Made by a program: the position numbers and the translations under genes | Part shown: piece by piece, positions 1 to 17,011 of the stretch | Layout: every line of letters begins with the position of its first letter | Numbering within the stretch: position 1 is the first letter of the stretch | Assembly (NCBI RefSeq): GCF_009811555.1 | Contig: NZ_BLIN01000005.1 | Coordinates: 744,001 to 808,000 of the forward strand | Length of the DNA stretch: 64,000 nucleotides | Reading direction: 5' to 3' | Source: Streptomyces caniferus | Lineage (GTDB): Bacteria; Actinomycetota; Actinomycetes; Streptomycetales; Streptomycetaceae | The notes under the pieces: generated by a model | Seen by the model: only the letters and a program-made list of their open reading frames with translations | Databases searched by the model: none | Told to the model about the DNA's origin: nothing

Positions 1-172
1 CGGTGAGCGCGGTGATCCGGCCGGTGCGCAGGCCGAGGCTGGTGCGCTGGAGCAGCGGCGGGCCGTCGGGGAGGCCGATGGCGAGGTCGGTGACCGTGAC
101 GGGCTGCGGGGTGTCGGCCGTGGCCGGGGAGGGGTCCTGGGGCAGGGGCGTGGGGCGGCCGGTGGTGGTCAT
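1..172 (-). CDS. ABC transporter ATP-binding protein, 5' end only (partial)
   Basis: Only the first 57 codons are inside the window; the gene runs off the left edge. The translation starts MTTTGRPTPLPQ and moves into the beta-strand layout of an ABC ATPase N-terminus (VTVTDLAIGL, then SLGLRTGRITALT, the lead-in to a Walker A loop that lies outside). Its ATG overlaps the stop of the upstream permease by four bases (ATGA), so it is the fourth gene of the leftward importer operon. By family it would energise uptake through the two permeases. Whether it is a single ATPase or an OppD-OppF-like fusion cannot be judged here. Confidence 0.8.
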   Translation of the reverse strand, partial: MTTTGRPTPLPQDPSPATADTPQPVTVTDLAIGLPDGPPLLQRTSLGLRTGRITALT

Positions 173-1011
173 CGCAGGGCGGCCCTCCGTGCGGTCGCGG
201 GTGCCAGGGCGTTGGCGGCGAGGTTGACGCTGATCGCGAGCAGACCGATGGCGAGGCCGGGGGCGACGACGGCCCAGGGGTTGAGGAGGATGCCGGGCCC
301 GTTCTCGCGGATCATCAGTGCCCAGTCGGCTTCGGGCGGTTGGGGGCCGAGCTGGAGGAAGCCGGCCATGGCGATGACATAGACGGCGTCGACGAAGCGC
401 AGGCCGAACAGGGCCAGGACGGTGGCACGGAGGTTGGGCAGGATCTCCCGCAGGGCCAGATGCCCGAGGCGCTCGCCGCTCGCGGTGGCCGCTTCGACGA
501 ATCCGCTGGTGGCCAGGGGCGCGGCGGCGCTGGCGACGATGCGCACGGCGTACGGGGTGCCCAGGGCGATGGCGGCCACGGAGATCGCGAGCCGCCCGCC
601 GCCGGGCCAGGCCAGGGCGAGGAGCATGATGCCCAGGACCGGTGGCAGCAGGATGGCGGTGTCCGCGGCGCGTTCGACGAGGCGTCCGAGCCGGGGACCG
701 AGGACCGCGAAGCAGCCGAGCAGGGTGGCCAGGAGGGTGACGACGGCGGCGACGATCAGGGCGCTGCCGATCAGGGCGCTGCCGCCGTGCAGCAGGCGGC
801 TGAGGACGTCGCGGCCGAGCTGGTCCCCGCCCAGGGCGGTGTCCGTGCCCGCCGTGCCGTAGGGCGCGGTGACGGGCTTGTCGACGGGGTGCGCGGCCAG
901 CAGCGGACCCGTCATCGCCAGCAGGACGAGCAGGACGGCGGGGACGACGGGCAGCAGGATCCGGGTCCGGGGGCGCGCGGGCCGCGGGCCGGGGACCACG
1001 ACGGCGGTCAT
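169..1011 (-). CDS. ABC transporter permease, DppC/NikC class
   Basis: Inner-membrane permease of about 280 residues, the normal length for the DppC/OppC/NikC class. It starts MTAVVVPGP, has a first membrane segment within residues 20-40, and then the soluble stretch containing GGDQLGRDVLSRLLHGG, a hallmark of C-type permeases of peptide/nickel importers. Several further hydrophobic segments follow, with an EAA-like cytoplasmic loop (EAATASGERLGHLALREILPN) that contacts the ATPase. The ATG is chosen because it overlaps the preceding permease stop by four bases. It pairs with the DppB-class permease upstream to form the channel of the iron-boxed importer. The substrate is inferred from context to be a metal chelate. 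Confidence 0.9.
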   Translation of the reverse strand: MTAVVVPGPRPARPRTRILLPVVPAVLLVLLAMTGPLLAAHPVDKPVTAPYGTAGTDTALGGDQLGRDVLSRLLHGGSALIGSALIVAAVVTLLATLLGCFAVLGPRLGRLVERAADTAILLPPVLGIMLLALAWPGGGRLAISVAAIALGTPYAVRIVASAAAPLATSGFVEAATASGERLGHLALREILPNLRATVLALFGLRFVDAVYVIAMAGFLQLGPQPPEADWALMIRENGPGILLNPWAVVAPGLAIGLLAISVNLAANALAPATARRAALR

Positions 1012-2018
1012 GAGCGGGCTCCCAGGGTGCGGGCGCGGACGAGGTCGGCCAGGAGGAGGACGACGGTGATCAGGGCGGCCGCGCAGGCGACGACGGCGGC
1101 GATGACGGGAGTGTCGCGGTCGGCGACGGCGCCGGCCAGCACCGTGCCGATGCCCGGGTAGTTGAAGAGGGTTTCCACGACGACGGTGCCGCCGAGCAGC
1201 ATGCCCGTGGAGGTGGCGATACCGGTGGCGATGGCCGGCCAGGCACCCGGCAGGGCGTGGCGCAGCAGGATGCGGCCGGTGGACAGCCCGTCGAGGCGGG
1301 CGGCCTCCACATGCGGGGTCGCGGCCTGGTCGGCGAGCGCGGCGCGGACGATACGGGTGTTCCAGCCGGTCTGCGGGACGGTCAGGGCCAGCACCGGCAT
1401 CACCAGCATGGACCAGGTGGCGGGAGCTCCGTCGGCGCCGGTGACCGTGGCGGCGGGCAGCCAGCCGGTCCACAGGGACAGCACCAGCAACAGGCCGATG
1501 GAGACCACGAATTCGGGCAGTGCGAAGCCGGCGGTGGAGGTGAGGTCCACGACGCGGTCCACGATTCCCCTGGGGCGGGCGGAGGCGCCAAGGCCCACGG
1601 CGAGCGCCGCGAGGACGGTCAGGACGAACGCGGTGCCGCCCAGCAGGACGGTGTTGGGCAGGGGCGCGGCGAGCAGATCGGTGACCCGCTCGCCGCGGGC
1701 GGAGGTGCCCAGACCGCCGGTGGGCAGGGCGGTGATCCAGTCCGCGAAGCGCTCCCACACCGGCCGGTCCAGGCCGAGCAGATGCCGGCGGGCGGCGAGG
1801 CCGGCGGCGCCCTCGCCGCGTTCGGAGGTGGCCGAGGCCGCGTCGCCGGGCAGCAGCTCGATCGCGGCGAACACCACGGCGAGCAGCACCAGCAGCATCA
1901 GGAGGCGTTTGCCGAGTACGGCGGCGCCCCGCAGGGCCAGGAGGCCGGCGCGGCGCGTGGCCGAGGCCGCCACGGGCCGTACGGCGGCCTCGGCCGGGCG
2001 GGTGGTGGTGCCGGTCAC
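1008..2018 (-). CDS. ABC transporter permease, DppB/NikB class
   Basis: Inner-membrane permease of about 336 residues. An N-terminal membrane segment (RLLMLLVLLAVVFAAIELLPGD) is typical of DppB/NikB proteins, and the EAA-like loop EAARLDGLSTGRILLRHALPGA lies in the second half. I use a GTG start at 2018-2016 because it gives a GTGA overlap with the stop of the binding-protein gene; upstream codons in frame lie inside that gene. It is translationally coupled on both sides. Together with the next permease it should form the heterodimeric channel of a peptide/nickel/metallophore-type importer. Confidence 0.88.
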   Translation of the reverse strand: MTGTTTRPAEAAVRPVAASATRRAGLLALRGAAVLGKRLLMLLVLLAVVFAAIELLPGDAASATSERGEGAAGLAARRHLLGLDRPVWERFADWITALPTGGLGTSARGERVTDLLAAPLPNTVLLGGTAFVLTVLAALAVGLGASARPRGIVDRVVDLTSTAGFALPEFVVSIGLLLVLSLWTGWLPAATVTGADGAPATWSMLVMPVLALTVPQTGWNTRIVRAALADQAATPHVEAARLDGLSTGRILLRHALPGAWPAIATGIATSTGMLLGGTVVVETLFNYPGIGTVLAGAVADRDTPVIAAVVACAAALITVVLLLADLVRARTLGARS

Positions 2019-3559
2019 CGCGCCAGCCACACGTTTTCGAGCTGGACGCGTCCGTAGCCGGGGAGTTGGGGAAGGCCGTGGACCGCGGGGGCGGCGAGGT
2101 CGATGCCGTCGGCCATGCCCCACAGCAGGTAGCCGGACCTGTCGTACTCGATCTGCTGGAGGTCGTGCAGGGCGGCGGTGCGGGCCTTGGGGCCAGGGGT
2201 GGCGAGGACCTTGTGGTAGGCGGCGTCGAAGGCCTCGTCGGACCAGTCGGCTTCGTTCTGGCCGGATCCGGTGGTCATGGTCTTGGAGGCGAAGAAGACC
2301 ACGGAGTCGTTGGTGCCCCAGTAGTTGGTGTAGAAGTCGCCCTTGAGCCAGGTCTTCTGGTAGAAGGTGCCGGACTCCTGCTTGACCACTTTGACCTTGA
2401 TGCCGGCTTCGCGGGCCTGGGAGGCGAACAGCGTCGCGGACTCCGCGAGCCCGGGGACGTCCTCGGTGGTGACCAGTTCGTACGTCCTGGAGAAGTCGAA
2501 CCCGGCGTCCTTCAGCAGTTTCCGGGCCCGGGCCAGGTCGCGGTGGCGCTGCGGGATGCTCGTGGCGTAGTCGGGGTCGCCGGTGCCCAGGATGTCGTTG
2601 GCGACGGTGCCGTACCCGGACAGGACCTGTCGGACCATCGCCTTGCGGTCCACGATCAGCTTCATCGCGGCACGGACCCCGGGGTCGGCGAAGGGGCCGC
2701 CGGAGGTGCGCATGACGAGGGGCATCGCCATGTCGTTGGGGCGCCGGACGACCTGGATGTCCTTGCGGGCGGCCGCGGTGCGGGCGGCGACGGCACCGGC
2801 GTTGGAGGCCACGTCGATCTGGCCGGACATCAGGGCGTTCGCCATCGCCTGAGGGCTTTCGAACATGGTCACCTCGATGGCGTCGAGGTGGACCGGGCCG
2901 CCGTGCCAGTGGGCGTTGCGCAGCAGCCGGGCGTTGCCGCCGCGGTACCAGTCGAGCCTGAAGGGGCCGGTGCCGGGCGCCTCGGCGATGTCCTTGTCGG
3001 GGGTGTTCTTCTTGAGGACGAACGTCGACAGGCGGGTGAGCAGGGGGAGTTCGGCGTTGGCGAAGTCGGAGACGAGGACGACGGTGTCCTTGCCCTCGGC
3101 CGTGATGTGGTCCGCCTTGATTCCGGGCAGCCGCGCGGCGCCCGCGGGGGTGTTGCGCAGCCGGCGCAGCGACCACACCACGTCGTCGGCGGTGACCGGG
3201 GTCCCGTCGTGGAAGGTCGCGCCCTTGGCGACGGTGAACCGCCAGGTGGTGAGGTCCTTCGACGGCTTCCAGGAGGAGGCGAGGCGGCCGACGGTGTTGT
3301 CCTTGAGGCCCGGCGCGGTGAGGGTGTCGTGGACGAGGGCGATGACGAGGTAGTCGCTCTCGTTGCCCTGGGTGCCGTGCGGGTCGCGGGTGATCGCCGA
3401 GGAGCGGCCGAGCGCGCCGATGCGCAGGGTGCCGCCCTTTCTCGGCTTGCCGCCGGAGCCGGAGGACCGGGCACGGTCGCCTCCGCCGCAGGCGGTGAGC
3501 AGCGCGGCCGCGCCCATCCCCCCGCCGGCCCACAACACCTGACGCCTGCTCCAGTCCAT
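2015..3559 (-). CDS. ABC transporter substrate-binding lipoprotein, peptide/nickel (SBP_bac_5) family
   Basis: A 514-residue extracytoplasmic solute-binding protein that captures ligand and delivers it to the permeases. The N-terminus has twin arginines (WSRRQVLWAGG) and a lipobox LTAC with the acylated cysteine at about residue 24. The mature part shows the family-5 architecture: KGGTLRIG near residue 40, then the WKPSKDLTTWRFTVAKGATFHDGTPVTADDV-like core near residue 100. This family includes DppA, NikA and the staphylopine-binding protein CntA. It is the first gene of the leftward operon, and an iron box ends 28 bases upstream of its ATG, so repression by iron-loaded DmdR/IdeR is likely. 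The ligand is inferred to be the metallophore made by the divergent genes. Confidence 0.9.
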   Translation of the reverse strand: MDWSRRQVLWAGGGMGAAALLTACGGGDRARSSGSGGKPRKGGTLRIGALGRSSAITRDPHGTQGNESDYLVIALVHDTLTAPGLKDNTVGRLASSWKPSKDLTTWRFTVAKGATFHDGTPVTADDVVWSLRRLRNTPAGAARLPGIKADHITAEGKDTVVLVSDFANAELPLLTRLSTFVLKKNTPDKDIAEAPGTGPFRLDWYRGGNARLLRNAHWHGGPVHLDAIEVTMFESPQAMANALMSGQIDVASNAGAVAARTAAARKDIQVVRRPNDMAMPLVMRTSGGPFADPGVRAAMKLIVDRKAMVRQVLSGYGTVANDILGTGDPDYATSIPQRHRDLARARKLLKDAGFDFSRTYELVTTEDVPGLAESATLFASQAREAGIKVKVVKQESGTFYQKTWLKGDFYTNYWGTNDSVVFFASKTMTTGSGQNEADWSDEAFDAAYHKVLATPGPKARTAALHDLQQIEYDRSGYLLWGMADGIDLAAPAVHGLPQLPGYGRVQLENVWLAR

Positions 3560-3586
3560 GCCGAACTCCCCCTCGGATCCGAGTGC

Positions 3587-3605
3587 TTAGGTTTGCCTAC
3601 CCTAA
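3587..3605. promoter_or_regulatory. Iron box A (DmdR/IdeR operator) for the importer operon
   Basis: TTAGGTTTGCCTACCCTAA is a 19-bp imperfect palindrome with TTAGG/CCTAA ends. It closely matches the Streptomyces DmdR1 / mycobacterial IdeR iron-box consensus known from siderophore promoters. It lies just upstream of the binding-protein ATG. Confidence 0.9.
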
Positions 3606-3717
3606 GGATCAACACCTCCGCAAGGGCGCCTGTCGCGTGCGCCCGTGACGAGAAAATGTCAACTCGGCATTACTTGGCGGGAGTTGTGCAAAGCCGGATA
3701 CATGGGTGCGATGCAAG

Positions 3718-3736
3718 TTAGGTTTGCCTTACCTAA
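3718..3736. promoter_or_regulatory. Iron box B (DmdR/IdeR operator) for the biosynthesis operon
   Basis: TTAGGTTTGCCTTACCTAA is a second 19-bp iron box, nearly identical to box A and about 112 bp from it. The palindrome TTAGGT/ACCTAA is perfect over the outer six bases. It sits about 150 bp before the hydroxylase ATG, so the rightward operon should also be iron-repressed. Confidence 0.92.
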
Positions 3737-3888
3737 TATTCGTGGGTACCTTCGTCACCGTTCGCCGGACGCCGGGCGCGGAGCCGCACTTCCCTCCCCC
3801 GCCCGGCCTGTCGAGCGCGCCGCGCCCTGGCCACGCGCTGCCGCGCCGGACCCGGTTCCTCGCCCGCAACGGAAGGGAACGCCTCGAC

Positions 3889-4881
3889 ATGAGCACGGGA
3901 GCACCTGTCCGCCGGCTCGATACCACCAGCGCCGAAGAACTGTGCCGGGCCGCCGAGAAGATCCTCACCGAGTGCGGCACCTCGGCCGCTTCACCCGAAC
4001 TCCTCGCCCGTGTCGCCGAGTCCGCCGGCGATCTGAACGAGCGGATCCGCCACGAACTGCGCCCCGTCGACACGGACGACGGCCTCTTCGTCCTGCGCGG
4101 CCTGGCGGTCGACGACACCGCGATAGGCGCCACGCCCGCCGGCTGGGCCACCGCCGGCGACAGCGGAGCCCTCCACGACATCGTCCTGCTCCTCCTCGCC
4201 ACGGTCATGGGCAACCCCCTCGCCTGGGAGGGACAGCAGGACGGCCGTTTCGTGCACAACATCGTCCCCGCTCCCGGGCACGAGACCGCACAGACCGGCG
4301 CCAGCAGCACCGTGCTGCTCAGCCCGCACACCGAGGACGCCTTCCACCCCGGCCGCGCACACCTGCTGATGCTCGGCTGTATGCGCAACCGCGACAACAT
4401 CGCCACCACCGCGGCCAGCATCCGCCACGTCAGGCTCGACGAGGCCGATATCGCCCTGCTGACCCGCCCGTTGCTGCCGATCCTCCCCGACGACGCCTAC
4501 GCCGAGGCGCAGGGCTTCGACGGCGGGGAGCCGCCGTGCGTGCCGACGCTCTTCCACGCCGAGGACGGCCTGACCCTCCGCTTCGACCCGGCCTACACCC
4601 CCGTCGACGAGGCCCCGCCCGCCCACCGGGCCGCGTACCGGCGGCTGGCGGCCGAACTCGCCCGCGTCTCGCGCGCCGTGAGCCTGAGTCCCGGCGAGGT
4701 CCTGGTCGTGGACAACGACCTCGTCGTTCATGGCCGCGTCCCCTTCGCGCCCCGCTACGACGGCACCGACCGCTGGCTCAAGCGTGCCTCCGTCCGTGTT
4801 CCCGCGCGCCGGACACGCCCCCTGACCGAAGAGCACGAGCACGGCTACGGTCAGGCCGCCGTCGAAGCCCATGCCGCCTGA
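3889..4881 (+). CDS. Fe(II)/alpha-ketoglutarate amino-acid hydroxylase (clavaminate synthase-like)
   Basis: A 330-residue non-haem iron dioxygenase of the clavaminate synthase/TauD superfamily. The metal triad is visible: His147 and Glu149 in the motif HTED, and distal His281 in VVHGRVPF. Arg299 in DRWLKR is placed to bind the alpha-ketoglutarate carboxylate. Length and motif spacing resemble the beta-hydroxylases of free arginine or asparagine (VioC, AsnO group), so the likely reaction is hydroxylation of an amino acid or amino-acid unit. The ATG at 3889 has a GGAAGGGA ribosome site 11 bases upstream. It is the first gene of the iron-boxed operon. Hydroxylating arginine would fit an ethylenediamine-type metallophore, but the substrate is inference. 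Confidence 0.85.
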   Translation: MSTGAPVRRLDTTSAEELCRAAEKILTECGTSAASPELLARVAESAGDLNERIRHELRPVDTDDGLFVLRGLAVDDTAIGATPAGWATAGDSGALHDIVLLLLATVMGNPLAWEGQQDGRFVHNIVPAPGHETAQTGASSTVLLSPHTEDAFHPGRAHLLMLGCMRNRDNIATTAASIRHVRLDEADIALLTRPLLPILPDDAYAEAQGFDGGEPPCVPTLFHAEDGLTLRFDPAYTPVDEAPPAHRAAYRRLAAELARVSRAVSLSPGEVLVVDNDLVVHGRVPFAPRYDGTDRWLKRASVRVPARRTRPLTEEHEHGYGQAAVEAHAA

Positions 4882-4908
4882 CCGCTCCGCACCCCACCGA
4901 GGACGGAC

Positions 4909-5934
4909 ATGACCGAGACCACTGTGGCCGGCTCCACCGAGTCCATAACCGCCGACGACACGACCCTGCGGGTGCTCTCCACCAGCGACCTGGCCGGCAT
5001 CGACATCACCCTCACCGACGTCGTGACCACGGTCGAGGGCGCCTACCGCACACTGGCCGCGGGCCAGTCGGACAACCCCCGCAAACTGACCGTCAAGCCC
5101 GGGGACGGGCACTCCGTCTCCTACGCGATGCTCGGCCGGGACGGGTCCCGCAACGTCGTCGCGATCAAGACCTCCTACAAGCACGGACTCGACAAGGCGC
5201 GCGACGAGCAGCACTACTACACCGCGCTCACCCTCTACGACGACGTCACGGGTCTGCCCGTCGCGATGATGGACTGCGGCCGCATCGGCTCGCTGCGCAC
5301 CCCGGCCGTCTCCGCCCTCCTGGCCCGCGAATGCGCCCGGCCCGGCGCCCGCAGCGCGCTGGTCATCGGCACCGGAACCCAGGGGCGCCTGGCGCTGCCC
5401 TTCCTGCTGACGACGCTCCCGGACCTGGACCGTCTGATGGTCTTCGGCACCCACTCCGACGGCATCGCCGCCGTACGCGAGCAGGTGCGCGCCCACTTCC
5501 CCGACCGGGACGTGGAGATCGTCACCGACCTGCGGGCCGCCGCGGCCGAGTCCGACGTCCTCGTCGCCACCGCCGGCGGACACACCCCCGCCGCCGTCGA
5601 GGCCGACTGGCTGCGGCCCGGTGCGCTCTCGATCCTGGTGGGCCACGGACTGGCGCCGTCCACCCTGCACCGCGCCGATCGCGTCGTGGCCACCAGCGCG
5701 GCACAAATGAAGGTCACCGGCACCGACATGGCCGACGGGGACGGTAATTTCCCGGCCGTGGACACCGAGTTCCCGCCCGTCCTCGCGGGCACCGCACCCG
5801 GCCGCCGCTCGGCGCGGGAACGCGTCTTCGCCTACAACAGCGGACTCGTCGTCACCGATATCGCGCTGGGCCACCGCTTCGCCCAACTCGCCCTCGACCA
5901 GGGGCTGGGAGTGCGGGTGCCGCTGTGGCAGTGA
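4909..5934 (+). CDS. Ornithine cyclodeaminase / SbnB-family NAD-dependent dehydrogenase
   Basis: A 341-residue member of the ornithine cyclodeaminase/mu-crystallin family. The dinucleotide-binding loop IGTGTQGR is at about 153-160, and the preceding RIGSLRTPAVSALLA block with a conserved Lys near residue 88 (VAIKTSY) is typical of the family. SbnB of staphyloferrin B biosynthesis oxidises N-(1-amino-1-carboxyl-2-ethyl)-glutamate to release 2,3-diaminopropionate. Alternatively, the reverse chemistry would make a secondary amine by reductive condensation, as in opine synthesis. Because a decarboxylase sits between this gene and the SbnA-like gene, the reductive direction is plausible here. It lies 27 bases after the hydroxylase and overlaps the decarboxylase. 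Confidence 0.82.
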   Translation: MTETTVAGSTESITADDTTLRVLSTSDLAGIDITLTDVVTTVEGAYRTLAAGQSDNPRKLTVKPGDGHSVSYAMLGRDGSRNVVAIKTSYKHGLDKARDEQHYYTALTLYDDVTGLPVAMMDCGRIGSLRTPAVSALLARECARPGARSALVIGTGTQGRLALPFLLTTLPDLDRLMVFGTHSDGIAAVREQVRAHFPDRDVEIVTDLRAAAAESDVLVATAGGHTPAAVEADWLRPGALSILVGHGLAPSTLHRADRVVATSAAQMKVTGTDMADGDGNFPAVDTEFPPVLAGTAPGRRSARERVFAYNSGLVVTDIALGHRFAQLALDQGLGVRVPLWQ

Positions 5935-7307
5935 GCGACCCGCGCACCGCGACGGTGCCGACCCTGCCCGCCCATGCCGATCCCGACACCGGTCGCGTCC
6001 TGGACAGCGGACTGCTGCACGAGCTGTCCCACGCCTTCGGCGGCCCCTTCCACTTCCTGCTGCCGCACCGCTTCGACGCCCACCTCGCCGCCTTCCGCGC
6101 CGCGCTGCGCGATGCCGGGGTGGAGGGGCGGGTGTACTACGCGAAGAAGGCCAACAAGGCAGCGGTGTGGATGGAACGCTGCGCCGCCCACGGCGCGGGC
6201 GTGGACGTCGCCAGCGCACCGGAACTGCGCGAGGCCCTCGGCCACGGGGTACGCGGCGAGAGCATCGTCGTCACCGGTCCGGCGAAGAGCGACGAACTGC
6301 TGCGGCTGGCCGTCCTCCAGGGGTGTCTGATCGCCGTGGACGCCCTCGACGAACTCGACCTGCTCATCACACTCGCCCTGACCGGCGCCGTACGCCCCGC
6401 CCGGCTGCTGCTGCGCCGGCTCCCCCCGGCGCAGCGGCACAGCCGGTTCGGCATGGACGCCGCAGAGGTGGCGGCGGCCATGGACCGCTGTGTCACCGCC
6501 GGGGACGCCGTACGGATGGAGGGCTTCAGCTTCCACCTGTCCGGCTACGCCACCCGGCCGCGCGCCGCTCTCGCGGCGGAACTCGTCGACCTGTGCCTGC
6601 GAGCGCGCGTCCTGGGACTGCAGGCGGACCGGATCAGCATCGGCGGCGGTTTCGCCGTCGACTACAGCTCCGCGGAGGACTGGCACGGCTTCCTCGCCGA
6701 CCAGCGGCCCGAGCACTACCACGCACGCAAGGCGTTCCGGACCGGGGACTTCTACCCGTACCACTCCCCCGTCGCCGGAGCCGATGCGCTGCGCGCCGTC
6801 CTGGCCGCCGTCCCCGAGGGCGGCCGCGCCGGCCTGGCCGCACGGCTCAGGGAGACCGGGACGCTCCTGATGATGGAGCCCGGCCGCGCCCTGCTCGACC
6901 GGGCGGGGGCGTCGGTCTTCCGCGTCCAGGGGGTCAAGGACCGGGGCGGCTACCGGATCGTCACCGTCGACGGCACCAGCCTGAGCCTGTCCGAGCAGTG
7001 GTTCAACAGCGAGTACCTCCCCGACCCGTACCTGGTGACGCCGGCCGGGCGGGCCGGCGGCAGTGAGATCCACCCGGCATGTGTGGCAGGCGCGTCCTGC
7101 CTGGAGTCGGACCTGCTCACCTGGCGCAAGGTCCCCTTCCCCGCCCGCCCCCGGGTCGGCGACCTGCTGGTCTACCCGAACACGGCCGGGTACCAGATGG
7201 ACTCCAACGAGTCGCCGTTCCACGACCTGCCGCTGCCGCCCAAGGTCGTACTCGACCGCCTGGACGGCCGCCCGCGCTGGCGCCTCGACCGCCGTCCCGC
7301 CTGCTGA
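5931..7307 (+). CDS. PLP-dependent decarboxylase, fold III (SbnH / diaminopimelate decarboxylase-like)
   Basis: A roughly 458-residue group IV decarboxylase. The N-terminal alanine-racemase-like barrel carries YYAKKANK near residue 70, with the Schiff-base lysine in KAN. The C-terminal beta domain has the catalytic-cysteine motif ASCLESD and ends with the conserved YQMDSNESPFHD-like segment. I take GTG 5931 (GTGA overlap with the previous stop); GTG 5925 is also possible. SbnH, the closest known pathway analogue, decarboxylates a diaminopropionate-derived intermediate to leave an ethylenediamine unit. The same role is inferred here, acting on the product of the SbnA-like enzyme. Confidence 0.83.
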   Translation: MSDPRTATVPTLPAHADPDTGRVLDSGLLHELSHAFGGPFHFLLPHRFDAHLAAFRAALRDAGVEGRVYYAKKANKAAVWMERCAAHGAGVDVASAPELREALGHGVRGESIVVTGPAKSDELLRLAVLQGCLIAVDALDELDLLITLALTGAVRPARLLLRRLPPAQRHSRFGMDAAEVAAAMDRCVTAGDAVRMEGFSFHLSGYATRPRAALAAELVDLCLRARVLGLQADRISIGGGFAVDYSSAEDWHGFLADQRPEHYHARKAFRTGDFYPYHSPVAGADALRAVLAAVPEGGRAGLAARLRETGTLLMMEPGRALLDRAGASVFRVQGVKDRGGYRIVTVDGTSLSLSEQWFNSEYLPDPYLVTPAGRAGGSEIHPACVAGASCLESDLLTWRKVPFPARPRVGDLLVYPNTAGYQMDSNESPFHDLPLPPKVVLDRLDGRPRWRLDRRPAC

Positions 7308-7332
7308 CCCTCTCACCGCCCAGGAGTTCCCC

Positions 7333-8358
7333 ATGAACGAGGCCCTCGCGCGCCCCGCCGTGGTCTCCCGCCTCTCCGACCTCATCGGCCGCACCCCGCT
7401 CTTGGAGCTGTGCCGCACCGAGACCGGCAGCCGTCTCCTGCTCAAGCTGGAGATGTACAACCCCACCGGCACCGCCAAGATCCGCATGGCACGCGCCATG
7501 GTCGATGCCGCGGAGCGGCGCGGCGAACTGCGGCCCGGCGGCCGCATCATCGAGTCAACCTCCGGCAACACCGGACTGGGCCTGGCGGTCATCGCCGCGG
7601 AACGCGGCTACACCTTCACCGCCGTCGTCGACCACCACGCCGCCCCCGACAAGCTCCGCGGCATGCGGGCGCTGGGCACCGAACTCGTCTACGTCGTCGA
7701 TGACGGCACCGAGGAGCTCGCCACCGCCGCCCGCGAGGAGTTGGCCGAGGACATGGCGCGCGGCCAGGACAACACCGTCTTCACCGAGCAGCACAACAAC
7801 CCCGCCAACGGCGCCGGCTACTTCCCCGTGGCCCACGAGCTCCATCAGGCCCTGGACGGGAGGATCGATGTCCTGATCGGCGCGGTGGGCACCGGCGGCG
7901 CGCTGTGCGGCACCACCCGCGAACTGCGCACGCTGGTGCCCGGCTGCATCACGGTCGGCGTCGAGCCCAAGGGCTCGATCGCGTTCGGCGGCCCGGCCCA
8001 CGACTACTACCAGTCCGGGACCGGTACGCCCGAAGGTGCCGAGATCGGCGCGCTCGTCGACTTCGGCCTGATCGACGTAGGCGTCAAGGTCGGCGACATC
8101 GAAGCCTTCGCCACCGCACGCGCCGTCGCCCGCACCGGCCTGCTCATCGGCGGCTCGGCCGGCGGCGTGGTCCACGAGGCCCTGGCCCGCCTGCCCGCCC
8201 TCCCCCCGGGCAGCACCATGGTGGCGCTGGTCAACGACGGCGGGGAGAAATACCTCGACACCGTCTTCGACGACGACTGGATGCAGGCCCGAAACCTCAT
8301 CGATCTCGACCTGGAACGCGAGATCGACGAGACCCTCACCAAACTCCGCAGGATCTGA
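7333..8358 (+). CDS. SbnA-like PLP synthase (cysteine synthase superfamily)
   Basis: A 341-residue fold-II PLP enzyme. The PLP lysine lies in YNPTGTAKIRMA near residue 40, the substrate-carboxylate loop is STSGNTGLG, and the glycine-rich phosphate loop is GAVGTGGALCG. SbnA-type enzymes replace the phosphate of O-phosphoserine with the amino group of glutamate; related enzymes of the EDDS pathway would use aspartate. It should make the C-N bond that starts the ethylenediamine backbone. The C-terminal tail ends LREIDETL-like, longer than in CysK, as in SbnA. The ATG has GGAG 9 bases upstream. The stop overlaps the MATE start (TGATG). Confidence 0.85.
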   Translation: MNEALARPAVVSRLSDLIGRTPLLELCRTETGSRLLLKLEMYNPTGTAKIRMARAMVDAAERRGELRPGGRIIESTSGNTGLGLAVIAAERGYTFTAVVDHHAAPDKLRGMRALGTELVYVVDDGTEELATAAREELAEDMARGQDNTVFTEQHNNPANGAGYFPVAHELHQALDGRIDVLIGAVGTGGALCGTTRELRTLVPGCITVGVEPKGSIAFGGPAHDYYQSGTGTPEGAEIGALVDFGLIDVGVKVGDIEAFATARAVARTGLLIGGSAGGVVHEALARLPALPPGSTMVALVNDGGEKYLDTVFDDDWMQARNLIDLDLEREIDETLTKLRRI

Positions 8359-9785
8359 TGCCCGCCATGCAGCTGACCACCCTCCTCCGCGACAGCCGTG
8401 CCCTGGCCGCCCTCGCCGTCCCGCTCATCCTCACCCAGCTCGCACAGGTGGCCCTGACCACCACCGACACCGTGATGATGGGCCTGCTCGGCACCGCCGA
8501 CCTCGCGGCGGGAGGGCTGGCCATCGTCCTCTTCAACCAGTTGCGCACCATGGGCGTCGGCCTGGTCACCTCCGTCGGCAACCAGATCGCGGCCGCCTCC
8601 GCACGGGCCGAGGGCGCCCAGAAGGCCGAGGCCGCCGCCGACGTACGGCAGGGCGGCGACGAAGTCCGCGCGCTCGTCCGCGCCGGCCTCACCGTCGCCA
8701 CCCTCGCCGGTATCGCCGGGGCCGTGCTCATGCTGCTCATCGGCCGGGCCCTGGGCCTGCTCGGGCAGGACGCCGGTGTCGTCCAGCGCGCCCAGACCAT
8801 GCTGCTGGCCCTCGCCCCGGGCCTGCTGCCCTGCCTGTGGTTCCAGGCGATCCGTCAGTTCACCGTCGGCATGCGCCGCCCGCAGGCCCTGCTGCGGATC
8901 ACCCTCGCCTCCGTTGCGGTCAACGCCGGCCTCAACTGGGCCCTCATCCATGGCACAGGGGGGCTGCCCAGGCTCGGACTGCCGGGCGTCGGCGTGGCCA
9001 CCTCCGTCGTCCACCTGCTGTCCTGCCTGGCCCTCTACCTGTCGGCGAAGCGCGACCCGGCCCTGGGCCCGCTCCTCAGCCTCAACCTCCTCAAGGCCGA
9101 CCGCCCCACCGTCCGCCGTCTGGTCCGGCTCGGCGTACCGATCGCCGCGACCTACGGCTCCGAGGCCGGCTTCTTCTCCGTCACCGCCCTGATGGCGGGC
9201 TCCTTCGGCAGCGCCGCGCTGGCCGCGCACACCGCCGTCAACCAGCTCGTCTACATCGTCTTCCAGGTCGCCGTCGGCCTCTCCCACGCGGCGTCCCTCA
9301 ACGTCAGCCGTGAACTCGCCCTCGGCCGCACCGACACCGCACTGCGCATCAAGAACACCGCGCTGGCCTGCGCCGGCGCCGTGATGGTCGTCGTGGGCCT
9401 GCTCTACGTCACTCTGCCCGGGCTGGTGCTGAGCCCGTTCTTCGACACCGACAGCCCCGCCGACGCCGAGGCCGTCACCCTCGCCACCCGCCTGCTCCTC
9501 GTCATCATGGTCCTGCAGTTCTTCGACTGCGCCCAGAACATCGGCATCGGGCTCCTGCGCGGCCTCGACGACACCAAGAGCGGATTCCGCATCACCCTCA
9601 TCGGCTACTGGGCCATCGGCCTCCCCGCCGCCTGGCTCCTCGGCTACGCCGCCGCCCTCCACACCCTCGGCATCTGGCTCGGCCTCCTCACCGGCCTCGC
9701 CGCCACCGCCGTCCTGCTCCTGCGCCGCTACAGCGCCTCCCTGCGCACCCGGTTCGCCGCCCAGCAGACGGTGCCGGCGGCGTGA
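8358..9785 (+). CDS. MATE-family efflux transporter, probable metallophore exporter
   Basis: A 475-residue polytopic membrane protein of the MATE (NorM/DinF) family with about 12 hydrophobic segments in two homologous halves. It begins LAALAVPLILTQLAQVALTTTDTVMMG, the characteristic first-helix pattern, and the second half restarts at VRRLVRLGVPIAATYGSEAG. ATG 8358 overlaps the previous stop (TGATG); ATG 8367 is an alternative. Position as last gene of an iron-boxed biosynthetic operon suggests it exports the apo-metallophore. General drug export is the alternative. Confidence 0.88.
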   Translation: MPAMQLTTLLRDSRALAALAVPLILTQLAQVALTTTDTVMMGLLGTADLAAGGLAIVLFNQLRTMGVGLVTSVGNQIAAASARAEGAQKAEAAADVRQGGDEVRALVRAGLTVATLAGIAGAVLMLLIGRALGLLGQDAGVVQRAQTMLLALAPGLLPCLWFQAIRQFTVGMRRPQALLRITLASVAVNAGLNWALIHGTGGLPRLGLPGVGVATSVVHLLSCLALYLSAKRDPALGPLLSLNLLKADRPTVRRLVRLGVPIAATYGSEAGFFSVTALMAGSFGSAALAAHTAVNQLVYIVFQVAVGLSHAASLNVSRELALGRTDTALRIKNTALACAGAVMVVVGLLYVTLPGLVLSPFFDTDSPADAEAVTLATRLLLVIMVLQFFDCAQNIGIGLLRGLDDTKSGFRITLIGYWAIGLPAAWLLGYAAALHTLGIWLGLLTGLAATAVLLLRRYSASLRTRFAAQQTVPAA

Positions 9786-10091
9786 GGCACCCGAGTCGTC
9801 CGGCGCCCTCGGCGAGCACGGCGTAACCGCCCTGCGCTGCTCGTCGGTTCGCTTCCCGCGGCGCACCCGCGCGAACGAGGGGCCCGGGTTCCTCTTCAAC
9901 GCCGCCGCGGAACCGTCACGCGGGAGCCGTTCGGGTGAAGCGCGACGGCGGGCAGGTCCCCGGCCGCCGCCGTGCCGCATGCCCCCTGGGGCCCGGTCGG
10001 GCGGGAGTGGCCGTCCGGGCCGTCGTGCGGCACAGCGGTGTCCCGGCGGGCGCGGGCGTCGGGGGGCTCATAGATTGGCACGGGTGGGGCC
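9786..10091. other. Intergenic gap after the metallophore operon
   Basis: 306 bases between the MATE gene and the phosphatase gene. No convincing gene or strong hairpin is visible; it presumably holds the operon end and the promoter of the next gene. Confidence 0.5.
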
Positions 10092-11366
10092 GTGAGCGGC
10101 AGGAGGATGGGCAGGGAACCCGTGAGGAGAGCGAAGCTCGATCATGCGGCGCTGTTCGCCGCCACGCCGAGCGCGTGCCTGGTCCTGAACCCGGACCTGG
10201 TGATCGTCGACGTCAACCAGGCGTACCTCCAGGCCACCGGGCGGACCCGGGACGATCTGCTCGGGCAGTACGTCTTCGACGCCTTCCCCGACAACCCCGC
10301 CGACCCCGATGCCGAAGGGGTGCAGAACCTGCACCCCTCACTGAACCGGGTGCTGGCCTCCGGCGAACCGGACACGATGGCGGTCCAGCGGTACGACATC
10401 CCCATTGCCGACCAGCCGGGCGTGTTCGAGGAGCGCTGGTGGTCCACCATCAACACCCCCGTCGCCGGGCCGGACGGCACCGTGGCGTGGATCATCCACC
10501 GGGTGGAGGACGTGACGGCGTTCGTGCACTCCCGCCGGGCCCGTCAGATGCCCGGCGGCCGGCTGAGCGAGCGCGAGGAGGCGATGGAGGCCGAGCTGTA
10601 CGTCCGCGCGCGGGCGCTGCAGCATCTGAACGAGGAGTTGCGCCGGGCCCACGCCCGCGAACGCCAGGTCGCGCTCACCCTCCAGGAGTCCATGCTGCAC
10701 TCCCCCGACCTCGCCCGGCACCGGGACATCGCGGTGCGCTACCTCCCCGCCATCGGCTCCCTGAACATCTGCGGCGACTGGTACGACATCGTCGACCTCC
10801 CCGGGAAGGCGTTCGCCGTCGCGGTCGGCGATGTCGTCGGCCACGGGCTGGAGGCCGCCGCCGTCATGGGGATGCTCCGCAGCGCCCTCAGCGCCGCCGC
10901 CCGCTCGGTCGAGGGCCCCGCCCAGGCGCTGAAGGTGCTGGGCCTGTACGCCCGCTCCGTCGACAAGGCCCTGGCCACCACCGTCGTGCAGGTACTGATC
11001 GACACCGGCCGTCGTGAGGTGTCCTACAGCAGCGCCGGCCACCCGCCCCCCGTCCTGCTGCACGCCGACGGCACCCATACGCTCCTCGACCAGGCCACCG
11101 ACCCGCCCCTGGGCGCCCACCTCGAACACGAACCCGGCCCCCAGGCCCGCCTTCCGTACACCCCCGGCGACTCCCTCGTCCTCTACACCGACGGACTCAT
11201 CGAACGCCGCGACGAGGACATCGACGCCAGCCTCACCCGCCTCACCGACGCCCTCTCCCGCTACACCCGGTTCAGCCCGGAACGCCTCGCCGACGCGCTG
11301 CTGACCCGCCTCGGCGTCAGCGCCGGCGCCCGCGACGACATCGCCCTTGTCATCGTCCGGCTGTGA
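10092..11366 (+). CDS. PAS domain-containing PP2C-type protein phosphatase (RsbU/SpoIIE class)
   Basis: A 424-residue signalling protein. Residues about 15-145 form a PAS sensor (FAATPSACLVLNPDLVIVDVNQAYLQATGR). Residues 155-210 form a linker helix (RARALQHLNEELRRAHARERQ). Residues 215-424 form a PP2C/SpoIIE serine phosphatase with the metal motifs GDWYD, GDVVGHG, LVLYTDGL and DDIALVIV. Such proteins dephosphorylate anti-anti-sigma factors in Streptomyces partner-switching networks. The signal bound by the PAS domain is unknown. GTG 10092 is the longest start; GTG 10122 with an AGGGA just upstream is a real alternative. No anti-sigma partner gene is adjacent. Confidence 0.88.
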   Translation: MSGRRMGREPVRRAKLDHAALFAATPSACLVLNPDLVIVDVNQAYLQATGRTRDDLLGQYVFDAFPDNPADPDAEGVQNLHPSLNRVLASGEPDTMAVQRYDIPIADQPGVFEERWWSTINTPVAGPDGTVAWIIHRVEDVTAFVHSRRARQMPGGRLSEREEAMEAELYVRARALQHLNEELRRAHARERQVALTLQESMLHSPDLARHRDIAVRYLPAIGSLNICGDWYDIVDLPGKAFAVAVGDVVGHGLEAAAVMGMLRSALSAAARSVEGPAQALKVLGLYARSVDKALATTVVQVLIDTGRREVSYSSAGHPPPVLLHADGTHTLLDQATDPPLGAHLEHEPGPQARLPYTPGDSLVLYTDGLIERRDEDIDASLTRLTDALSRYTRFSPERLADALLTRLGVSAGARDDIALVIVRL

Positions 11367-11615
11367 CGCGAGCGCGTGGCTCACGGCGTACGACGTAGCG
11401 GCGTACGTCCGATCACGGGCTCCGCGGCACCGCATCCTCGCCCCGTCGCGATGGCGGGTCTGCGCCCCCTCGACAGATCACCGCCGTATGGGCAGCTCTC
11501 CGCCCATGGGCAGATCGCCGCGATCCGCAACCCGACCAGCGGATGCAGCCACGGGACGCGTCGCGCACGATGGGGGTTAAGAAGATCCAGATCCTCGAGC
11601 CGCTCGGGATGGCCG

Positions 11616-12236
11616 ATGACAGAGCATCCAGGACTTCCTCATGCGAACGACCGTCGTGTGCCGCGCGGCCGCAAGGGCCGCACGGACCGCCCGCAGGCCC
11701 GCTCGGAGCGGGCGCCTTCGCGGACTGCCCCGCCCGGCACCCCACACCGCCTGTCCGTACTGATCACCGTGCGCGCGTCCCTTGCCGTGCTCCTGGCCCT
11801 CGCCGTGGTCCTCACCGGTGTGGGCGCGTTCAGCGGCATCGCCCAGGCGACGAACCGCGCCGCCTCCGGCCCGGCCTCGACGCCGGCCGCTCCGTGGACG
11901 GCAGCTTCGGCCGCCCACCGCAGCGCCGCCCCGACTCAGCAGGCGCCCGCTCCCGCCACCGTGGTGCAGACGTATTTCAGGGTCGTCAACGACCGTGATT
12001 TCGTGAGCGCTTGGGCGATCGGCGGGAGACAGCACATCGCGGGCCAGACGTACGACGCCTTCGTCCAGTCCTTCAACACCGTCACGAAGTACGACGTCAC
12101 GATCGAGTCGGTGGAGGGCAACAAGGTCTCGGTGCGGCTGGACGCCTCGCAGACCGACCGAACCCATCGGCACTACGCCGGCACGTACACCGTCGAGGAC
12201 GGAGTGATCGTCGCCGCCGACGTCCATCCCGAGTGA
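11616..12236 (+). CDS. Membrane-anchored protein with an extracytoplasmic NTF2-like domain
   Basis: A 206-residue protein. Residues 1-45 are basic and hydrophilic. One membrane segment lies at about 50-75 (ASLAVLLALAVVLTGVGAFSG). An Ala/Pro/Thr-rich linker reaches about residue 112, then a small C-terminal domain begins VVQTYFRVVNDRDFVSAWAIGG and ends GTYTVEDGVIVAADV, the alpha-beta pattern of NTF2/SnoaL-like folds. It is likely tethered outside the membrane. No catalytic residues are recognisable, so a ligand-binding or protein-binding role is most one can say. ATG 11616 is chosen; longer in-frame starts add only arginine-rich low-quality sequence. Confidence 0.7.
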   Translation: MTEHPGLPHANDRRVPRGRKGRTDRPQARSERAPSRTAPPGTPHRLSVLITVRASLAVLLALAVVLTGVGAFSGIAQATNRAASGPASTPAAPWTAASAAHRSAAPTQQAPAPATVVQTYFRVVNDRDFVSAWAIGGRQHIAGQTYDAFVQSFNTVTKYDVTIESVEGNKVSVRLDASQTDRTHRHYAGTYTVEDGVIVAADVHPE

Positions 12237-12342: not shown

Positions 12343-13749
12343 TCACTGCGTGGAGTCGGCCACCGGATACGGGACGAACGTGCTGCTGTTCTCGTCGATG
12401 GCGAGCGGGCGGCCGAGTGGCGGGACCGCGCGCTGCGGGCAGTCGAGGCGTTCGCAGATGCGGCAGCCCATGCCGATCGGGGTGGCGGCGGAGGCGTTGT
12501 CGAGGTCGAGGCCGTCGGAGTAGACGAGCCGGGAGGCGTGCCGGATTTCGCAGCCGAGGCCGATGGCGAACGTCTTGCCGGGCTCGCCCCAGCCGCCGCG
12601 GTGCCGGGTGACCGCACGGGCGGTCCACAAGTAGCGCTGCCCGTCGGGCATCGCCGCGATCTGGACGTGGATACGGCCCGGCGCGGCGAAGGCCTCATAG
12701 ACGTTCCACAGCGGGCAGGTGCCGCCGGCCCGGGAGAAGTGGAAGCCGGTGGCGGACTGGCGTTTGGACATGTTGCCGGCCCGGTCGACGCGGACGAAGG
12801 AGAACGGCACTCCGCGCAGGCGGGGGCGCTGGAGGGTGCTGAGGCGGTGGCAGACGGTTTCGTAGCCGAGGCCGAAGTGGTCGGTGAGGCGCTCGATGTC
12901 GTAGCGCACGCTTTCGGCGGCCGTGTGGAAGGCGCGGTACGGCAGGATCAGCGCCGCGGCGAAGTAGTTGGCAATGCCGATGCGCGTCAGGGCGTGCGTG
13001 GCCGACCCGGTGGGGAAGTCCTCGGCCGCCAGCCGGTCCAGTTCGTCGCCGTATTCGAGCAGGGCGAGCTGTGTGGCCATGCGGAAGGCCTGCTGGCCCG
13101 GCCGGAGCCGGCTGGAGAGGTGCAGGGTGCGCGAGGTCTCCTCGTAGTGGTGCAGGTGCGCGGCGGCCTCGGTCGACGTGCGCACCCCGTGTGTCCCGGT
13201 GAGCCTGTCGGAGAGCGCCCGGACGACCTCCCCCGGCCGGATGCCGATGTGGCGGGCCAGGTCTTCGGCGGCGAGATCGGCGTCGTGCAGGTAGTTCTGG
13301 CGGCGGTAGAAGAACTCCCGGATCTCCTCGTGCGGGGAGCGGGGAGCGCCGGGTTCGCCGTCCCGGCCGTCGGCCGCGCCGGCGATCCGTTCGGCGAGGA
13401 GTTGTCCGCGCCGGCCCAGGTCCAGCAGCACCTTGGCGACGGCCGGCATCCGGGTGGCGAGTTCGGCCAGGTCCGACGGTGAGACCCGGGCCTCGGCCAC
13501 CTCACCGGCCAGCGCCTCGCGCAAATCCGCCACGAGTCTGCTGGTGTCGCGCTCCGAGAAGAAGCCGGGGTCGACGCCGAAGGCTTCGGTGAGCCGGAGC
13601 AGCACGGGCACGGTGAGCGGCCGGGAGTCGTGTTCCATCTGGTTCAGGTAGCTGGGCGAGATGCCCAGGACCCGGGCCAGTTCGGCCTGGCTCATACGCC
13701 GGTCCTCGCGCAGGCGCCGCAGCCGCGCTCCGGCGTACGTCTTGCTCAC
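12343..13749 (-). CDS. ramB: RamB-type XRE-family transcriptional regulator of acetate/glyoxylate metabolism
   Basis: A 468-residue regulator. Residues 1-60 are an XRE helix-turn-helix ([30 protein letters not shown]). The large C-terminal part is the short-chain-fatty-acyl regulator/RamB domain, ending with the cysteine motif [13 protein letters not shown]. In corynebacteria and mycobacteria RamB controls the isocitrate lyase gene. Here the gene is divergent from aceA across a 497-bp gap, which supports the same job. GTG 13749 is chosen because GGGGGAGGAG lies 5-14 bases upstream and family members begin with SKTY; an ATG at 13800 lacks this. Confidence 0.88.
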
Positions 13750-14246
13750 CGCGCTCCTCCCCCGTCGGGTCAGTTTCGGTCCGGCCGTGCGGGCAGCCAT
13801 GGCCCGGCTTGCTCGCGGGCAGCCATCGGCCGGCCGGCCTGCGAGCGGCCGTCGGTCCGGCTGCCGGGCGAGCGGCCGTCGACACGGGCTTCAGCCTACG
13901 CGGCATCCGGCTTGGCCGACCCTTCGCAACCTTGGCAATTCGCCGGGAAAAGATTCGCAGAACTTGGCAGGCGTCCATGATTGCTGGCACTCGGTGCCAG
14001 TGCCAGAGTTCCAGTGCGGCCCGCCGAACCCTGGCAGCCAAGGCAGTTATCCGGGCACGATCCCCGCCCTGACGTCGGAGATCCCGGCATTTCCTGTCCG
14101 CCGGCCAGGCAGCATTGCTCAGCATCGCCCTCGACGGGACGGCGGGCCGCACTCAGATCAGACACACAGTGCCACTCTTCTTCAGAACCGGTGCACGGCT
14201 GAGGAGACATTGGCAGACCACGCGACTCATGGAGACGGTGAAGGTC
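13750..14246. promoter_or_regulatory. Divergent ramB/aceA promoter region with repeated TTCGCA...TTGGCA elements
   Basis: A 497-bp gap. Two related elements lie 31 bp apart: TTCGCAACCTTGGCA (13923-13937) and TTCGCAGAACTTGGCA (13954-13969). A palindrome CTGGCACTCGGTGCCAG follows at 13984-14000, and more TGGCA half-sites occur to about 14215. The unit resembles the TTTGC-rich RamB sites of actinobacteria and is a good candidate operator. No gene is visible. Confidence 0.6.
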
Positions 14247-15530
14247 ATGGCAGAGGCGAAGACGACGGCGGCCGAGCGGCTCGCGCAGCGGTGGGCCACC
14301 GATCCCCGGTGGAAGGGCATCGAGCGCACCTACGGCGCGGAGGATGTGGTCCGGCTGTCGGGCAGCGTCCGGGAGGAGCACACACTGGCCCGTCGCGGCG
14401 CCGAGCGGCTGTGGCGGCAGCTGCACGAGCGCGACTACGTCCACGCGCTGGGCGCGCTGACCGGCGGTCAGGCCGTGCAGCAGGTCAAGGCCGGTCTGGA
14501 GGCCATCTACCTGTCGGGCTGGCAGGTCGCCGCCGACGCCAACCAGGCCGGCCACACCTACCCCGACCAGAGCCTGTACCCCGCCAACTCCGTGCCGCAG
14601 GTGGTCCGTCGGATCAACAACGCGCTGCTGCGCGCCGACCAGATCGCCACCGCGGAGGGCGGCAGCGACACCACCGACTGGCTCGCGCCGATCGTGGCCG
14701 ACGCCGAGGCGGGCTTCGGCGGACCGCTCAACGCCTTCGAGCTGACCAAGGCGATGATCGCGGCCGGCGCGGCCGGTATCCACTACGAGGACCAGCTCGC
14801 CTCGGAGAAGAAGTGCGGCCATCTCGGCGGCAAGGTCCTCGTCCCCACCGGCCAGCACATCCGCACCCTCAACGCCGCCCGTCTCGCCGCCGACATCGCC
14901 GACGTACCGACCCTGATCGTGGCCCGCACGGACGCCCTCGCGGCGAACCTGCTGACCAGCGACATCGACGAGCGTGACGCCGAGTTCGTGACGGGCGAGC
15001 GGACCGCCGAGGGCTTCTACCGCGTCCGGAACGGGATGGCGCCGGTCATCGCCCGCGGCCTGGCGTACGCGCCGTACGCCGACCTGATCTGGGTCGAGAC
15101 CGGTACCCCGGACCTGGCGCAGGCCCGGGAGTTCGCGGAGGCGATCCACGCCGAGCACCCCGACCAGATGCTGGCCTACAACTGCTCGCCGTCGTTCAAC
15201 TGGAAGGCCGCCCTCGACGACGACCAGATCGCGAAGTTCCAGCGCGAACTGGGCGCGATGGGCTACCGCTTCCAGTTCATCACCCTGGCCGGCTTCCACT
15301 CCCTCAACCACGGCATGTTCGATCTCGCGCGCGGCTACGCCGAGTCCGGCATGACGGCCTACGTCGACCTCCAGGAGAAGGAGTTCGCCGCGCAGGCACA
15401 GGGCTTCACCGCCGTCAGGCACCAGCGCGAGGTCGGCACCGGCTACTTCGACCAGGTCTCCACCGCCCTCAACCCGGCCTCCTCGACCACCGCGCTCAGC
15501 GGCTCCACGGAGGAGGAGCAGTTCCACTAG
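14247..15530 (+). CDS. aceA: Isocitrate lyase
   Basis: A 427-residue cytoplasmic glyoxylate-shunt enzyme that cleaves isocitrate to succinate and glyoxylate, allowing growth on acetate or fatty acids. The catalytic-cysteine motif KKCGHLGG is intact (Cys190). Other family blocks are [39 protein letters not shown] and [10 protein letters not shown]. Length matches the short AceA1-type enzymes. ATG 14247 has GGAGA/GAAGG upstream; ATG 14229 is a weaker alternative. A strong hairpin separates it from the malate synthase gene 95 bases downstream, and the divergent RamB is its likely regulator. Confidence 0.97.
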
Positions 15531-15568
15531 CCCGCCGACGGCCGTACAGCCCGTCGGCCCGTGAGCAA

Positions 15569-15602
15569 GCGGGGCCGGACGGCCGGCTCCGTCCGGCCCC
15601 GC
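15569..15602 (+). terminator. Hairpin between aceA and malate synthase
   Basis: A perfect 14-bp inverted repeat (GCGGGGCCGGACGG / CCGTCCGGCCCCGC) with a 6-base loop, without a clear T-tract. It sits just before the malate synthase ribosome site, so it may act as a partial terminator or an mRNA stabiliser that sets aceA above aceB expression. Confidence 0.75.
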
Positions 15603-15625
15603 TCCTCCCTCGTCAGGAGACCCCC

Positions 15626-17007
<1,382 letters not shown>

Positions 17008-17011
<4 letters not shown>

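Follow-up and report, generated by a model that had tools for sequence, protein, structure and literature searches.

A predicted further member of the EDHA metallophore family: a nine-gene, iron-boxed locus in a Streptomyces genome

Clusters for the aminopolycarboxylate metallophore ethylenediaminesuccinic acid hydroxyarginine (EDHA) were reportedly described for Streptomyces sp. MA5143a and S. scabiei 87.22 by Spohn et al. in 2018. According to later papers, MA5143a serves as the EDHA operon reference with four genes, aesA–aesD (PMC10702961), the S. scabiei cluster extends from scab_5231 to scab_5311 over 11 kb and its EDHA genes were not detected by antiSMASH in that work (PMC8914351), the family is deposited as MIBiG BGC0002567 and comprises 1,450 windows from 24 genera (PMC11888242), and antiSMASH 7 contains a rule for aminopolycarboxylic acid metallophores (PMC10320115). 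Here, a locus of this type is analyzed at the left end of a 64-kb stretch of DNA (G000:C5:744001-808000, referred to as the window) from a 9.15-Mb genome, the nearest named relatives of which are Streptomyces. Because the importer ATPase gene crosses the left window edge, the locus is counted as nine genes over about 11.1 kb, from the end of the ATPase gene to the stop codon of the MATE exporter gene.

Synteny with EDHA clusters and the iron boxes

All nine genes recur in the same order and orientation in MA5143a (locus L095) and S. scabiei 87.22 (L077). Identity to MA5143a ranges from 53% for the ATPase to 77% for the reductase, with the four enzymes at 62–77%, and identity to S. scabiei is 55–76%. 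The syntenic stretch in S. scabiei measures 10.9 kb, and the published tag range would fit nine genes if the tags step by ten. Each of the two genomes contains one close decarboxylase (64% and 68%, respectively) plus a distant one (40% and 36%). This nine-gene synteny, together with conserved catalytic residues, conserved iron boxes and the position in the synthase tree described below, makes it very probable from sequence comparison that the locus belongs to the EDHA metallophore family. The EDHA-class, NRPS/NIS-independent metallophore suspected in an earlier note on this DNA, made without database searches, is supported by the synteny and the synthase tree. Apparently intact and in no way unusual, the locus is a further example of an already described system; the class has its own MIBiG entry and is covered by an antiSMASH rule, and its novelty was overrated in that first reading. 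A reading of raw sequence can recover a siderophore class once missed by a genome-mining tool, as reported for antiSMASH and S. scabiei (PMC8914351).

The locus consists of a leftward importer (solute-binding protein, two permeases and ATPase) that is divergent from a rightward five-gene operon:

1..172, minus strand: ABC ATPase of the importer, N-terminal part (504 aa in full, remainder left of the window; full gene L013:8158-9672, equal to G000:C5:742658-744172); two ATPase halves by eye; with counterparts in the loci of MA5143a and S. scabiei
169..1011, minus strand, start at 1011: importer permease, NikC/OppC type (PF00528; best NCBIfam model Opp2C, under its cut-off)
1008..2018, minus strand, start codon approximate: importer permease, NikB/OppB type (PF00528; best NCBIfam model Opp2B, under its cut-off)
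2015..3559, minus strand: SBP_bac_5 solute-binding protein, peptide/nickel class (PF00496 at E 5.6e-72; top NCBIfam model Opp5A_nikA, 111.7 bits, cut-off 600; CntA model NF047575, 59.7 bits, cut-off 800)
3587..3605, no strand: iron box, importer side; matches the consensus and is kept in relatives
3718..3736, no strand: iron box, biosynthesis side; matches the consensus and is kept in relatives
3889..4881, plus strand: member of the VioC/clavaminate-synthase group of Fe(II)/2-oxoglutarate hydroxylases (triad H147/E149/H281, with D233-P-A235 and R299 at arginine-pocket places)
4909..5934, plus strand: ornithine-cyclodeaminase (OCD)/SbnB-like reductase (PF02423; best NCBIfam model TIGR03944 at 95 bits against a cut-off of 327; 4m54 as best solved relative)
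5925..7307, plus strand: pyridoxal-phosphate (PLP) decarboxylase, Orn/DAP/Arg family (PF02784 and PF00278; K75 in 77 of 78 relatives, the remaining piece not spanning this position)
7333..8358, plus strand: SbnA-like PLP synthase for beta-substitution, by homology to SbnA
8358..9785, plus strand: MATE exporter, NorM-like (TIGR00797 over its cut-off; best solved relatives NorM)

The genes named in the earlier note for a divergent pair of operons are thus all present at or near the positions it gave. Two of its labels are corrected: the top-scoring model of the decarboxylase is diaminopimelate decarboxylase, and NikA-type models score highest for the solute-binding protein. The curated cut-offs of the SbnA, SbnB, lysA, NikA and CntA models are reached by none of the proteins scanned. 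By eye, the N-terminus of the solute-binding protein contains a twin-Arg and a lipobox-like motif. It bears a weak likeness to CntA-type importers, with 59.7 bits where the CntA cut-off is 800. An opine metallophore of the staphylopine/Cnt type was rejected on this score. The sole dehydrogenase-like gene among the eight proteins scanned is of the OCD type, so that no opine/staphylopine-type dehydrogenase was found among them, no dedicated search having been made.

Both iron boxes, 19 bp each, match TTAGGTTAGGCTNACCTAA with 2 mismatches on the better strand, and further matches at ≤3 mismatches are lacking elsewhere in the 64-kb window. None of 100 shuffles reaches the window's number of matches, which bears out the iron box predicted on each operon's side. 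In the whole genome the pattern occurs at 10 distinct places, two of them at this locus (reversed control 0), and three others lie less than 10 kb from genes for synthetases of nonribosomal peptide synthetase (NRPS)-independent siderophores (NIS): C5:1287372 (gene at 1293230), and C5:2046423 and 2051173 (gene at 2055214). Among the 78 named relatives with a divergent importer, a site of at least 15/19 is found in 75, two sites in 50 and one in 25, while the best site reaches only 14 in the remaining 3; the reversed consensus attains at most 13. Across 87 loci, which partly repeat one another, 0 of 1,740 shuffled regions reach 15. The two boxes of the window (17/19 twice) are closer to the consensus than those of L095 and L077 (15 and 14 in each). 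Iron boxes are binding sites of DmdR1 (PMC12161575), and the cluster is under predicted iron-box (DmdR1-type) control.

The named loci were obtained by scanning species-representative genomes, with 19 aligned hydroxylases as the query. The scan confirmed 91 places, of which the best 80 were kept, L095 and L077 among them. Taking a tblastn piece of >100 bits as evidence for each gene, all nine genes are present in order in 67 of these 80; nine are broken by contig ends and four are otherwise deviant. A decarboxylase at least 54% identical to that of the window occurs in 12 of 394 genomes of the class, and a hydroxylase at least 66% identical in 4 of 41 near genomes, the own genome being counted in both cases. 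In L074 (Streptomyces buecherae) and L094 (S. chattanoogensis) only the biosynthesis half is present, the importer half not being found in 10 kb upstream; L074 retains an iron box, and L094 has none within 400 bp. Two nine-gene loci of the EDHA type coexist in G018 (L014 and L015), Streptomyces sp. SAJ15 (L023 and L091) and Streptomyces sp. DSM 15324 (L038 and L067).

Hydroxylase pocket and core enzymes

The His/Glu/His triad of the hydroxylase is intact, as the earlier note had it. In the 80 named relatives H147 and E149 are present throughout and H281 in 79, the alignment piece of the 80th not including this residue. The best solved relatives are 6daw, 4m23 and then CmnC entries; the first two we take, after a check against residue numbers, to be NapI and OrfP, respectively. 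In NapI, which desaturates arginine, the relevant residues are D245/A247 and K311, and in VioC D268/D270 and R334 (PMC10884159); D233, A235 and R299 of the window hydroxylase align with NapI D245, A247 and K311 (VioC R334). OrfP has Q142, G144 and Y257 where CmnC and VioC have Leu, Ser and Asp (PMC9513391), and Q135 and G137 occupy the places of OrfP Q142 and G144. All five residues (Q135, G137, D233, A235 and R299) are invariant in the 19 aligned hydroxylases, the window counted. Like the arginine oxygenases VioC, OrfP, CmnC and NapI, the enzyme belongs to the Fe(II)/2-oxoglutarate family and displays the triad and an Arg/Lys place for the substrate carboxylate, whereas its pocket is mixed, with OrfP-style Q135/G137 and NapI-style D233/A235. 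The predicted pocket suits an amino acid that carries a guanidinium group and has its carboxylate free; where the substrate is oxidized is not readable from it.

An EDHA relative with a differently oxidized arginine, for example at another carbon or desaturated, is a rival reading. The presumed desaturase 6daw as nearest solved relative and the identity of 62–77% between the four enzymes and their MA5143a counterparts speak for such a product; yet the examined pocket residues are the same in all 19 homologues and the synthases of hydroxylase-bearing clusters group with the EDHA references, which renders it improbable.

The latter grouping comes from trees that cover a chosen subset of loci, with 45 rows for the SbnA-like synthases and 33 rows for the OCD-like reductases. 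In the SbnA tree, the 19 rows from hydroxylase-bearing clusters, with the window and the references among them, form one group (98/99), and eight SbnA-like paralogues of the own genome (29–39% identity) fall outside. The SbnA-like enzyme thus does not cluster with enzymes of primary metabolism, which the earlier note had named as an outcome that would refute its reading. For the decarboxylase, other matches within the own genome are weak, with E-values of 2.1e-8 or worse.

The synthase tree also bears on the other aminopolycarboxylate class in the literature, ethylenediamine disuccinate (EDDS), the core chemistry of which would be similar. Reading the locus as an EDDS-type zincophore cluster instead of an iron siderophore cluster would have to contend with the iron boxes, the hydroxylase, the grouping of the synthase with EDHA references and the result that no Zur-like site is found in the window at ≤3 mismatches. 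This candidate was rejected as highly improbable.

In SbnA, which uses glutamate, R132 and Tyr152 are named among the residues binding O-phosphoserine (PMC12414870). R134 of the window synthase is matched to SbnA R132 on the basis of a constant offset of 2 (K47/K49, S75/S77, Q151/Q153). The predicted structure of the synthase, with a mean predicted local distance difference test (pLDDT) score of 75 and residues 216–238 under 50, supports the fold only.

Related gene pairs occur elsewhere. Two more neighboring SbnA-like/OCD-like pairs are located outside the window in the same genome (G000:C3:122063-124074 and G000:C3:187271-189235) and possibly provide diaminopropionate units for other clusters. 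A second, distant decarboxylase (33–40%) stands beside a weakly SbnA-like gene (29–33%) in L133, L134, L135, L136, L138, L139 and L140. In L137 and L147 the SbnA-like gene starts 2.4–2.7 kb before a decarboxylase relative (32–34%). The L137 decarboxylase shares a 930-aa frame with an N-terminal part that by eye resembles an FAD/NAD-binding domain, and a separate frame of similar appearance precedes that of L147.

Hydroxylase-less sister clusters and the order of assembly

With the decarboxylase as query, 401 genomes from a different family within the class yielded 74 places in 66 genomes. Nocardia and Corynebacterium would, we assume, fit as that family (cf. PMC11888242). A reductase search of 250 genomes from one other family gave 4 loci, all with the hydroxylase, and identified no EDDS cluster. 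Sixty of the 74 places and all 4 loci from the reductase search were examined; in these 64 loci the hydroxylase is present in 49 and absent from 15. L194, the contig of which begins within the reductase gene, was placed in neither class, and L129 (other synthase) and L154 (no SbnA-like gene found, the sole hit being of another type at 28%) were omitted when synthases were compared and kept in the other comparisons, so that 12 hydroxylase-less clusters were retained: L149, L153, L155, L160, L162, L172, L175, L181, L183, L186, L187 and L195. Hydroxylase-less clusters contain the reductase, decarboxylase, SbnA-like synthase and MATE exporter, and several are flanked by other ABC transporter genes. 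In six genomes (G746, G778, G633, G658, G500 and G703) a hydroxylase-less and a hydroxylase-bearing locus occur together.

Upstream of the reductase gene, 14 hydroxylase-less clusters were compared with 50 shuffles each. Zur-like sites are clear in L175 (14/15 against 11) and L181 (13 against 11), barely ahead in L153 (11 against 10), equal in L155 and below the shuffles in ten. Iron-box-like sites exceed the shuffles in L149 and L195 (15/19) and in L181 (14), and equal them in L186 and L187. Due to this mixed regulation the candidate explanation that these are Zur-controlled EDDS clusters was dropped, and they are not callable EDDS.

When 120–129 hydroxylase-bearing sequences are compared with 12–14 hydroxylase-less ones and ≥85% is required on each side, the two classes differ at 47 fixed positions, of which the exporter has 16, the reductase 15, the synthase 12 and the decarboxylase 4. 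Charge changes at six of these, every time toward greater basicity in clusters without the hydroxylase: synthase E135 (124/124) to Arg (12/12), reductase D273 (128/129) to Arg (13/14), decarboxylase F360 (126/127) and S427 (125/127) to Lys (13/14 each), exporter D390 (120/120) to Lys (12/14), and reductase G67 (120/129) to Arg (13/14 in the alignment). Since a pairwise reading gives Arg at G67 in just 6 of 14, this position is disregarded and five remain. L154 stands outside this residue code and L129 deviates at the exporter; looser charge shifts go both ways. E135 adjoins R134. Exporter D390 aligns with the Asp of the NorM CMDAVQ segment, which we take to be D371, and the hydroxylase-less class departs from NorM here. 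D371 is an ion-coupling residue of NorM (PMC8113278).

Our hypothesis for the charge pattern is that the arm handled would bear a guanidinium in one class and a second carboxylate in the other. The charge positions of the synthase and decarboxylase also change, which suggests that the synthase already loads the variable arm and that the succinate arm is added last. In this order, which we regard as probable with some reservation, the hydroxylase would convert L-arginine to hydroxy-L-arginine. The SbnA-like enzyme would form aminoacrylate from O-phosphoserine and add hydroxyarginine via its alpha-amine, giving N-(2-amino-2-carboxyethyl)-hydroxyarginine, from which the decarboxylase would remove the new carboxylate to leave an N-(2-aminoethyl) arm. 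The OCD-like reductase would then join the amine and oxaloacetate by reductive amination, generating the succinate arm, the MATE pump would carry EDHA out and the divergent ABC importer would take the ferric complex back in.

The same cluster and product could also be served by another order, in which the SbnA-like enzyme would add aspartate to O-phosphoserine and, after decarboxylation, the reductase would attach the 2-oxo acid of hydroxyarginine. This order is nearer to SbnA with its acidic substrate glutamate (PMC12414870), and the reductase, too, has a class-specific charged position, D273. However, no transaminase that could supply the 2-oxo acid is found among the eight proteins scanned, and with one substrate shared by both classes the synthase and decarboxylase would not be expected to differ, as they do at E135/R, F360/K and S427/K. 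An aspartate-first assembly is thus unlikely, and hydroxyarginine-first assembly is retained.

Extending the latter to both classes, a two-state system may be proposed, tentatively, in which a coordinated charge switch (E135, D273, F360, S427 and D390) marks the first-loaded arm as hydroxyarginine or as an acidic amino acid, with product class and pathway order readable from a few residues. If true, this residue code could tell EDHA-type from dicarboxylate-type clusters and make the step order predictable.

Several observations weigh against the EDHA-family reading and its proposed pathway. The class comparison rests on a single lineage split and was noticed post hoc. In the OCD tree, hydroxylase-bearing L148 lies inside the hydroxylase-less group (97/53), so that the hydroxylase label needs 2 changes on this tree. 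Arg is kept at R134, but the place matching SbnA Tyr152 is His154 in both classes, so that O-phosphoserine is a putative donor. Finally, contig ends do not explain the deviant loci L052, L074, L081 and L094, of which L081 displays no ATPase and L052 lacks the last two genes.

Window surroundings and comparison with known systems

Elsewhere in the window, a ScfR-type regulator is divergent from two genes that by eye resemble isocitrate lyase and malate synthase (12343-17011), and 38921-40135 encodes an Imelysin-domain (Peptidase_M75) protein. Iron uptake is a frequent association of this protein family. No RNA family reaches its gathering threshold in window bases 1-12000.

The staphyloferrin B pathway (SbnA/SbnB/SbnH), which includes a PLP decarboxylase step, resembles the locus in its homologous beta-substitution and OCD-type enzymes, but the window has no NIS synthetase and possesses the hydroxylase in addition. 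PF04183 (IucA/IucC) occurs at five places in the genome, none of them in the window; a staphyloferrin-type NIS route was rejected accordingly.

The EDDS zincophore cluster of Amycolatopsis japonicum likewise concerns an aminopolycarboxylate with an ethylenediamine core. It differs in its zinc/Zur control from the locus described here with its iron boxes and hydroxylase.

The EDHA clusters of MA5143a and S. scabiei agree with the locus in all nine genes, their order and orientation, and in iron-box-like sites in the divergent region; they differ in sequence, at 53–77% identity, and in iron boxes that are further from the consensus than those of the window.

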